From Mesorhizobium sp. WSM4313 (lineage in GTDB: Bacteria > Pseudomonadota > Alphaproteobacteria > Rhizobiales > Rhizobiaceae): a DNA stretch of 64,000 nt. The DNA lies in contig NZ_NSFT01000001.1 of NCBI RefSeq assembly GCF_002294725.1, positions 868,001 to 932,000 on the forward strand, read 5' to 3'. This document shows, piece after piece, positions 11,904 to 14,021 of this stretch. The translations under genes and the position numbers were made by a program. Each line of letters starts with the position of its first letter. Position 1 is the stretch's first letter. The notes under the pieces are model-generated. The model had not been told where the DNA came from, made no database searches, and was given only the letters and a program-made list of their open reading frames with translations.

Positions 11904-13019
11904 ATGCGTGTCGGCTGCCCCAAGGAAATCAAGAACCATGAATATCGCGTCGGCCTGACGCCGGGCTCGGTCCGCGAATATGTCGCGCATGGCCATGAAG
12001 TGCTGGTCGAGACCGGTGCTGGCGCCGGCATCGGCGCCGACGACAACGCCTATCGCGCCGCCGGCGCCACTATCGCCAAGACGGCCGCCGACGTGTTCGC
12101 CAAGTCCGACATGATCGTCAAGGTCAAGGAACCGCAGCCAAACGAATGGGTCCAGCTGCGCGACGGCCAAATCCTCTACACCTATCTCCATCTGGCTCCG
12201 GATCCGGAGCAGACCAAGGGTCTTCTTGGCTCGGGCGTCACCGCGATCGCCTATGAGACCGTGACCGACGACCGCGGCGGCCTGCCGCTGCTCGCGCCGA
12301 TGTCGGAAGTCGCCGGCCGCCTGTCGATCCAGGCCGGCGCGACTGCGCTGCAGAAGGCCAATGGCGGCCGCGGCGTGCTGCTCGGCGGTGTGCCCGGCGT
12401 GCTGCCCGGCAAGGTCACCGTGCTCGGCGGCGGCGTCGTCGGCCTGCATGCGGCCAAGATGGCTGTCGGCCTCGGCGCCGACGTCACCATTATCGACCGC
12501 TCGATCCCGCGTCTGCGCCAGCTCGACGACATCTTCGGCGGCCGCGTCCATACGCGCTACTCGACCGTCGAAGCGCTGGAGGAAGAATGCTTCTCGGCCG
12601 ACATCGTCATCGGCGCCGTGCTGATCCCGGGCGCCGCCGCGCCCAAGCTCGTCACCCGCGAAATGCTTTCCGGCATGAAGAAGGGCTCGGTGCTGGTCGA
12701 CGTCGCGATCGACCAAGGCGGTTGCTTCGAGACCTCGCATGCCACGACACACGCCGATCCGACCTATGAGGTCGACGGCGTGATCCACTATTGCGTCGCA
12801 AACATGCCTGGCGCCGTGCCGGTCACTTCGGCGCACGCGCTCAACAACGCGACGCTGCACTATGGCCTGCAGCTCGCCGACAAGGGCCTCAAGGCGCTGG
12901 TCGACGACCACCATTTGCGTAACGGCCTCAATGTTCATAAGGGCAAGATCACCAACCGCGCCGTCGCTGAGGCGCTCGGCTACGAAATGGTCGAACCGAA
13001 GGCGGTCCTTGCCGCCTGA
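11904..13019 (+). CDS. ald: Alanine dehydrogenase
   Basis: 371 residues, the normal length. It reversibly deaminates L-alanine to pyruvate and ammonia with NAD. The N-terminus [20 protein letters not shown] carries the substrate-binding Arg of the AlaDH/PNT family. Lys in [10 protein letters not shown] near residue 75 and the catalytic His in YLHLAPD near residue 96 are in place. The NAD fold [19 protein letters not shown] lies at about residue 170. GTGAACM-type closing motifs are replaced by [14 protein letters not shown], typical of the family. GGGAGAAG before the ATG is the ribosome site. Alanine is a carbon/nitrogen exchange metabolite in rhizobia. Confidence 0.96.
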
Positions 13020-13044: not shown

Positions 13045-13073
13045 GCCCGCCGGGTCATTCCGGCGGGCTTTTT
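13045..13073 (+). terminator. Rho-independent terminator of ald
   Basis: GCCCGCCGG and CCGGCGGGC form a 9-bp stem with a 6-base loop, followed by TTTTTC. It lies 26 bases after the ald stop. A second, weaker hairpin (13119-13142, AAGCGG...CCGCTT) follows downstream. Confidence 0.88.
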
Positions 13074-13280
13074 CTTGCGCGGAAACTGCGCTTCCGTCGA
13101 AAAATCCGGTCAACAAAAAAGCGGAGCAAAAAGCCCCGCTTCCTCGACTGTCGCGATCTGCCGCCGGTCCATCCGCGGTCGACACATCGCAACCGCTGCG
13201 TTTTAGCGCAGTAGTACGACGATAATACGACGGTCTTGAAAATGCGCTTCTTTTCGTTCTTCCGCCATTATGCGGCCTTG

Positions 13281-13296
13281 TGTGAAATGCTTCACA
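13281..13296. promoter_or_regulatory. Perfect CRP/FNR-type palindrome TGTGA-N6-TCACA
   Basis: TGTGAAATGCTTCACA matches the E. coli CRP consensus half sites exactly. Its centre (13288.5) lies 41.5 bases before position 13330, the apparent start of the structured RNA region downstream; that is the spacing of a class II activated promoter. Which CRP-like protein of this organism would bind is unknown. Confidence 0.5.
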
Positions 13297-13329
13297 TTCG
13301 CTCGACGAGAAAGCTGCCTAGAGACGGAC

Positions 13330-13448
13330 CGTTACTGGCGGTCTGAGCTGCTTGCCGGGTCGGGCAAGTCCGGCCCGGACGGCACTGGCCCGACAGCTTC
13401 TGTCAGACCCTCCAACGGCCCGCCCGACCATCGGCGGGCTTCTTTTTT
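13330..13448 (+). ncRNA. Candidate structured small RNA ending in a terminator
   Basis: This noncoding stretch between ald and the DUF1203 gene folds as nested hairpins on the plus strand. The outer stem is GGTCTGA (13340-13346) with TCAGACC (13403-13409). The middle stem is GTCGGGC (13359-13365) with GCCCGAC (13388-13394). The inner stem is GTCCG (13368-13372) with CGGAC (13376-13380). A separate rho-independent terminator closes the unit. A CRP-type site lies at the right distance upstream. No convincing reading frame covers it. It does not carry the conserved core of signal-recognition RNA. It may be a small RNA, or a decayed spacer with chance pairing. Confidence 0.45.
13418..13448 (+). 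terminator. Rho-independent terminator closing the structured RNA candidate
   Basis: GCCCGCCCGA and TCGGCGGGC pair with one bulged C and a three-base loop, followed by TTCTTTTTT. No plus-strand gene lies just upstream except the candidate RNA, which supports transcription of that stretch. It ends two bases before the stop of the DUF1203 gene on the other strand. Confidence 0.75.
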
Positions 13449-13450
13449 GG

Positions 13451-13918
13451 TCATGCCCGCTCGATGCGGCATTGATAGCAATTGTTGCGGGCCGAGCGGA
13501 CATGGATGTAGGCGATGTCGTCGCGCCCAAACAGCGTCCGCGCGCGGGCGGCAATCTGGCCGGTCGGCGTGACGGCGCCGCTGCCATAAACGATGCGATC
13601 GTCCCTGCCGTAGCCCCTGACGATATAGTCGCTGCTTTCGAGCATCTCCGGCAGCGCATCCCCTTCGGCTGCGCGCTCGCATTCCTGGGCATGCAGGAAG
13701 ATTGGGCCGGTTTCTGCATAGGGCTGCAGTTCCGGAAACGGGCGGTAGGCAACGATCAGATAGCCGTCACCCTCGGCGACGTTCCTGAGGCAATGCCTGC
13801 AAGGCACGCCGTCGCCGTCGGAGATGCGGTGCTCCGGGGTGCGGCCGTAGGCATCGGGCCCTCCCCGCTGCAACGCGCGCACGGCTTCGGTCGGCAAGGC
13901 TTTGAACTGGATGCTCAT
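13451..13918 (-). CDS. DUF1203 domain-containing protein
   Basis: 155 residues from ATG 13918 (SIQFKALPTEAV), which has a GGAG ribosome site. The domain of unknown function shows its usual features: a CRHCLR segment near residue 42, AYRPFPELQPYAETGPIFLH, and a C-terminal HVRSARNNCYQCRIERA. The Cys-X2-Cys near the start and a second Cys pair at the end could bind a metal, but this is unproven. The gene stands alone between the RNA candidate and the acetyltransferase gene. Confidence 0.85.
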   Translation of the reverse strand: MSIQFKALPTEAVRALQRGGPDAYGRTPEHRISDGDGVPCRHCLRNVAEGDGYLIVAYRPFPELQPYAETGPIFLHAQECERAAEGDALPEMLESSDYIVRGYGRDDRIVYGSGAVTPTGQIAARARTLFGRDDIAYIHVRSARNNCYQCRIERA

Positions 13919-14021
13919 GGCAGATCTCCGGTGTCGATCTCCGGAAGCTATGCCTTGGCGATAGTGCCTCCCACCCGATTCCTGACTGGCGGAACCGTTT
14001 CTCACTAGTCCTGGAATTGCT

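Follow-up and report, generated by a model that had tools for sequence, protein, structure and literature searches.

A probable small RNA gene of Mesorhizobium with its own predicted class II CRP-type promoter

Control of a small RNA by CRP is known from the enterobacteria, where CyaR (RyeE) is a CRP-activated small RNA. Among the alphaproteobacteria, the CRP homologue CgrA of Rhodospirillum centenum binds TGTGA-N6-TCACA, acts on its own operon at the site TGTGAAGCAGTTCACA, is encoded beside cyclase genes, uses cGMP and controls encystment (PMC4681086). Two further receptors bear on the comparison: Clr of Sinorhizobium meliloti, with the core site GTNNCNNNNGNNAC (PMC10127613, PMC5498481), and GlxR of Corynebacterium glutamicum, with the consensus TGTGANNTANNTCACA (PMC4254451). 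The locus analysed here, in Mesorhizobium sp. WSM4313, combines a TGTGA-N6-TCACA palindrome with a predicted small RNA gene.

The window (the whole 64-kb stretch of the 6.33-Mb host genome that was analysed) holds this feature between ald, which encodes alanine dehydrogenase (11904-13019, plus strand), and a convergent DUF1203 gene (13451-14005, minus strand), whose start codon is unsettled. From left to right, the gap contains the ald terminator (predicted at 13045-13068), an alphar35-like small RNA on the minus strand (13111-13213), the palindrome (13281-13296), and a plus-strand RNA, about 119 nt long, that ends in its own terminator (13330-13448). The palindrome, TGTGAAATGCTTCACA, is an exact TGTGA-N6-TCACA with its centre at 13288.5, 41.5 bases before 13330, just as a sequence-only reading of this DNA had reported. 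It is the one match in the window at up to one mismatch; shuffled windows average 0.87 matches of this kind, so a near-match would not by itself stand out. The whole genome contains six exact matches, compared with two for the reversed pattern, and three copies of TGTGAA-N4-TTCACA, compared with none for the control.

Comparison within the genus began from a 361-base query, which matched 143 of 146 genomes, mostly in the alphar35-like part only; this part is thus the most widely conserved piece of the gap. One locus per genome was taken from the 143 and oriented on the alphar35-like core, and loci were classed as RNA-bearing when TGTG[AG]A-N4-TTCACA followed the core with the small RNA behind it. 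Both the palindrome and the RNA are present in 55 loci, and both are absent from the other 88. In these 88, no palindrome was found at up to one mismatch from 400 bases before to 700 bases after the core, and none carries the RNA 3' module, with two mismatches allowed. The sequence-only reading had singled out gaps of relatives without both the site and the base pairs as telling against it. Such gaps do occur, in 88 of the 143 loci, and because none of them keeps one part alone they are read as joint loss or gain of the unit. The DUF1203 gene is present at all 55 RNA-bearing loci and at 77 of the 88 others, and the fetched stretch contains ald in 51 and 31 loci, respectively. The distance from the DUF1203 end to the core is 237-424 bases (median 299) with the RNA and 79-229 bases (median 101; 77 loci) without it. 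On a tree of DUF1203 alone, which covers 129 of the 143 loci (14 that lacked a long enough match were dropped), RNA presence needs 5 changes compared with 41.4 when the labels are shuffled, arguing that the RNA is confined to a few lineages.

The half-sites of the palindrome are nearly invariant across the 55 loci (54 distinct stretches): 11 of the 12 bases never change and the twelfth deviates once, with 11 different forms of the four central bases. This invariance is partly built in, because the pattern that selected the 55 loci requires the half-sites; the independent support is that the RNA module was never found without the site in any locus. The palindrome is followed by TTCG (13297-13300), an operator extension of the form T-N-C-G in which the first T and the G are present in 55 of 55 loci and the C in 48; the extension recurs in two other promoters (see below). 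Farther downstream is a -10-like box of unusual form, GCCTAGA (13316-13322), found in 36 of the 55 loci; twelve other forms occupy the same register in the remaining 19. The spacing from palindrome to box is identical in all 55 loci, with zero indels, and several bases of the spacer vary freely. A sigma-70 scan found no sigma-70-type promoter in the gap, which fits an activator-dependent promoter. The arrangement is that of a class II CRP/FNR-type promoter, with the centre at about -41.5, no -35 box and fixed phase in 55 loci; transcription may start near 13330, possibly within 13329-13332.

The minus-strand neighbour at 13111-13213, which the earlier reading had missed, matches the full length of the alphar35 model (RF02346) with 38.9 bits and an E-value of 6.4e-6; it is named alphar35-like only, because this falls under the gathering score of 45. 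Three further RF02346 matches of 34.9-47 bits occur elsewhere in the source genome, and one relative (L079, G123:C35:115364-115533) has two adjacent alphar35-like matches, as if by tandem duplication. One might suppose that the palindrome serves this RNA, and that the plus-strand structure is a mere terminator or spacer between convergent genes. The palindrome is symmetric and precedes the predicted 5' end of alphar35 by about 80 bases, which is within the range of CRP action, and the alphar35-like RNA is the most widely conserved piece of the gap. However, the alphar35-like core is kept in the 88 loci without a palindrome, and the distance from core to palindrome ranges over 106-136 bases among the 55 loci with no helical period. 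The constant spacing to the plus-strand box, set against this variable distance, ties the palindrome to the plus-strand RNA, and we consider service to the alphar35-like RNA quite improbable.

The plus-strand RNA matches no Rfam family. A search of Rfam 15 gave 0 matches above the gathering threshold in the window, and plus-strand positions 13281-13448 have none at E-values up to 5, which agrees with the earlier failure to recognise a known family. A description of this RNA was not found in the literature searched. Table 1 of a survey of M. huakuii 7653R places MH_s11, MH_s16 and MH_s22 between convergent genes (PMC5596092), and any of these may be identical to the plus-strand RNA or to the alphar35-like one.

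A covariance model that spans promoter and RNA, trained on 40 of the 55 loci, was run against the 146 genomes. It recovers all 55 RNA-bearing ones with E-values of 2.1e-13 or better, along with one weak extra genome (G100, E 0.005); one of the genomes, G067, gives two overlapping matches. Among 394 evenly drawn genomes of the family, strong matches come from three members of the genus and weak ones (28 bits) from two others, L190 and L191; the latter two show no palindrome within two mismatches, and none of four window proteins matched there. A pattern scan of genome contigs returned 34 records: 32, including three MAGs, have Mesorhizobium in the title, and the other two are MAGs titled Alphaproteobacteria and Hyphomicrobiales; no title names another genus and none is M. 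huakuii. The contig pattern requires GCCTA, so promoters with other boxes are missed, and records close to the source genome may be absent. By these sequence searches (146 genus genomes, 394 family genomes and the contig scan), strong matches to the predicted RNA are seen in Mesorhizobium only.

The small RNA of the window folds more stably than its dinucleotide shuffles (z -2.71). The mean z over all 55 RNAs is -3.83, and without the terminator it is -2.58, with 49 of 55 below -1. The elements that persist are a lower helix, P1, formed by GGCGG (13337-13341) and CTGTC (13400-13404) and paired in 95.8% of cells (40 of the 55 sequences), and the intrinsic terminator (13417-13448). The sequence-only reading was right in placing a separate terminator with TTCTTTTTT here, and the terminator ends at 13448. 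The alignment has a covariation score of 0.133, compared with 0.091 in shuffles, and 16 cells changed on both sides, compared with 8.0; each value was exceeded in 0 of 500 shuffles. The number of pairs with a two-sided change shows no excess (1 compared with 1.0). The single base pair with strict compensation is the closing pair of the terminator, which is U-A in 18 of the 40 sequences, G-U in 14, A-U and C-G in one each, and unpaired in 6.

Three nested stems (GGTCTGA/TCAGACC, GTCGGGC/GCCCGAC and GTCCG/CGGAC) had been proposed from the sequence of the window. They are perfectly complementary as written but are not the minimum-energy fold, and as a conserved fold they were rejected: in 15 close relatives 85.0% of positions are paired, compared with 85.1% in shuffles, with zero two-sided changes.

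RNA length ranges from 69 to 242 nt across the 55 loci. The longest (L071, in G067; 800-1041, 242 nt) owes its length to an insertion in the upper arm with long inverted repeats, which resembles a mobile repeat element. In 13 short forms, the long arm is replaced by an outer stem, GCCTGC/GCAGGC; this stem is nearly neutral as evidence because its sequence hardly varies among the 13. One clade contains both long and short forms (L030 and L033, for instance, stand next to L071), which suggests repeated gain or loss of the upper arm. The C-rich stretch CTCCAAC (13410-13416; TCCCAAC elsewhere) is conserved in the alignment and unpaired in most predicted folds, and it is a possible pairing seed.

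The transcript might instead encode a small protein, since 43 of the 55 RNAs contain ATG, GTG or TTG and nine have a closed internal frame, five of these of 24 codons. Against this, 12 RNAs have no start codon at all and 34 have only frames that stay open to the RNA end, the lengths are spread evenly over the residues modulo 3 (20, 17 and 18), and the upper arm is present in some RNAs and missing from others. A coding function is therefore very improbable, and the absence of a conserved reading frame among the 55 RNAs agrees with the earlier statement that nothing coding fits. The unit thus looks like an independent small RNA gene, with its own predicted promoter and terminator and no conserved reading frame.

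Candidate activators were sought with the HTH_Crp_2 profile, which gave 12 matches above the cut-off in the genome: nine read as CRP-type, two (L163 and L164) resemble other families, and L165 was left unassigned. E. coli CRP reads TGTGA at the place of the R-E pair in the recognition helix. Among the nine proteins, this pair is present in a single one, with the helix GATRESVNKTL; that protein is encoded at G000:C1:801370-802383 in the source genome, outside the window and about 79 kb from the small RNA. Its domain matches (PF00027, 4.6e-17; PF13545, 4.2e-14; PF00325, 2.6e-5) show the combination of a cNMP-binding domain and a Crp helix-turn-helix that defines a CRP-type receptor. The three best PDB matches have the helix GASRETVNKAL at the same place; entries 4byy and 4cyd we take to be GlxR. 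The fourth match, 7pza, presumably Clr, is catabolite-activator-like and has the helix GASRPKVNRAI, without the R-E pair. On these sequence features, the protein at C1:801370-802383 is the likely activator of the small RNA.

The extended motif TGTGA-N6-TCACAT-N-CG has three exact matches in the 6.33-Mb genome, before the small RNA, the regulator gene and a P450/Dyp-peroxidase gene; at up to one mismatch it occurs at seven places, compared with two for the control. The three exact matches are to be expected, because the scan was made after the extension had been noticed in these promoters, and the informative part of the result is the absence of a fourth. The other exact palindromes (C1:79798, C3:32030 and C23:459149) lack the full T-N-CG extension on a brief look. 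The palindrome of the regulator gene (C1:802443-802458) precedes the first ATG in the open frame by about 90 bases, with a GCTCAGA box in the same register as the box of the small RNA. The third (C1:796925-796940) is flanked by a class III cyclase-TPR gene and a 1407-aa P450/Dyp-peroxidase frame, in which the Dyp match is weak (2.5e-4); here CCTAG sits one base closer to the palindrome. The P450/Dyp-peroxidase frame, which is very long, forms a cluster (L229 3120-10351; G000:C1:795119-802350) together with the class III cyclase-TPR gene and the CRP-like gene, which is convergent. The chance that one of the five other palindromes would fall within 200 bases before a named gene is 1.6e-4, a post hoc figure.

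An RNA controlled by a CRP-type site could also answer to a different protein: Clr, an FNR/FixK-type regulator or a family outside the search. At least nine CRP-type proteins are encoded in the genome, and the search covered HTH_Crp_2 proteins only. Membership in the Clr regulon was rejected, in that all three sites in the source genome break GTNNCNNNNGNNAC at two positions, with C6 and G11 missing. FNR/FixK sites are TTGAT-like, and the candidate's own gene carries the palindrome. A different regulator is, on balance, unlikely.

All 15 RNA-bearing genomes examined, out of the 55, have the site before the gene of the likely activator, 14 of them in exact form, and so does G074, which has no RNA; the box at this gene varies among genomes and is sometimes out of register. 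Before the P450 gene, 29 of the 30 best-matching loci have an exact site, and the last has one with a single mismatch. Three genomes with the regulator and without the RNA (G116, G118 and G020; L244, L245 and L246) have no palindrome before the regulator gene and have TGTGAA-N4-TTCACA downstream of that gene, some 1.2-1.3 kb past the anchor; in G043 the palindrome is farther upstream of it.

The regulator (E 1e-30) is found in 79 of the 146 genomes, including all 55 RNA-bearing ones and 24 of the 91 others (Fisher 2e-21, with kinship ignored), and the P450/Dyp gene (E 1e-60) in 74, including all 55 and 19 of the 91. A control CRP-type paralogue (E 1e-60; 104 of 146) also leans toward RNA-bearing genomes, with 46 of the 55 and 58 of the 91. 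Independent changes are too few for a telling test: supported branches of the tree offer 3 contrasts, of which 1.1 agree on average and none is opposed, a result that is not significant. The co-occurrence of regulator and RNA is consistent with a link, not proof of one.

Joint presence, fixed spacing and the recurrent promoter design favour the earlier proposal of an independent small RNA gene under a CRP/FNR-family activator. Judged from sequence comparison, we consider it probable that this is a Mesorhizobium-restricted small RNA gene with its own class II CRP-type promoter, driven by the CRP-like protein of C1:801370-802383. We infer that this protein would bind a cyclic nucleotide, that the liganded dimer would bind TGTGA-N6-TCACA at about -41.5 and recruit RNA polymerase despite the lack of a -35 box, and that the resulting RNA of about 119 nt would end at its own terminator. 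By the same promoter design, the protein would activate its own gene and the neighbouring P450/Dyp-peroxidase gene. The small RNA, in turn, may act on mRNAs by base pairing through CUCCAAC or UCCCAAC. A wider proposal is plausible, if somewhat short of probable: in part of Mesorhizobium, a self-activating CRP-like receptor of cyclic nucleotides may drive both a P450/Dyp enzyme and an mRNA-reshaping small RNA with an inconstant upper arm and a fixed promoter and 3' module.

Pairing of the RNA 3' part was sought in the regulator leader of 15 genomes, and no pairing site conserved among them was found in that leader. The duplex energy is about two deviations better than with shuffled leaders in 2 of the 15, G002 and G051 (for G051, only when the query was 9 bases long); in the other 13 it is close to that of the shuffles or worse. 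A perfect 10-base match occurs in G002 only, and a similar stretch is present in G116, an RNA-lacking genome.

If the scheme is correct, rhizobia would have a second CRP-type receptor beside Clr, with a likely operator and a few strong targets, one of them a small RNA, and the signal-to-RNA circuit would be directly testable in a nitrogen-fixing genus. The work also defines a candidate small RNA family that Rfam 15 lacks, and charts where it is present or absent across 146 genomes.

The locus resembles CyaR (RyeE) in having a stand-alone, terminated small RNA with a CRP-type-activated promoter, the activation being predicted here; it differs in that no sequence relation between the two RNAs was found (no Rfam match) and the regulators are of different lineages. 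The alphar35 family (RF02346) shares the gap but is on the opposite strand, a neighbour rather than the plus-strand RNA itself. Clr is likewise a rhizobial CRP-type cyclic-nucleotide receptor, and the helix of 7pza, which we take to be Clr, has GASRPKVNRAI in place of the R-E form. The core site of Clr is also different, namely GTNNCNNNNGNNAC (PMC10127613, PMC5498481). GlxR is closer in its helix, GASRETVNKAL compared with GATRESVNKTL of the regulator, and has the consensus TGTGANNTANNTCACA (PMC4254451), but it belongs to a distant organism and has a much wider role. CgrA is different in its use of cGMP and its control of encystment, and a small RNA is not mentioned with it in the sections that describe it (PMC4681086). 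It is nevertheless an alphaproteobacterial CRP homologue with the same palindrome, self-regulation and cyclase genes beside it, and by this likeness the CgrA circuit is the nearest published counterpart that we have encountered.
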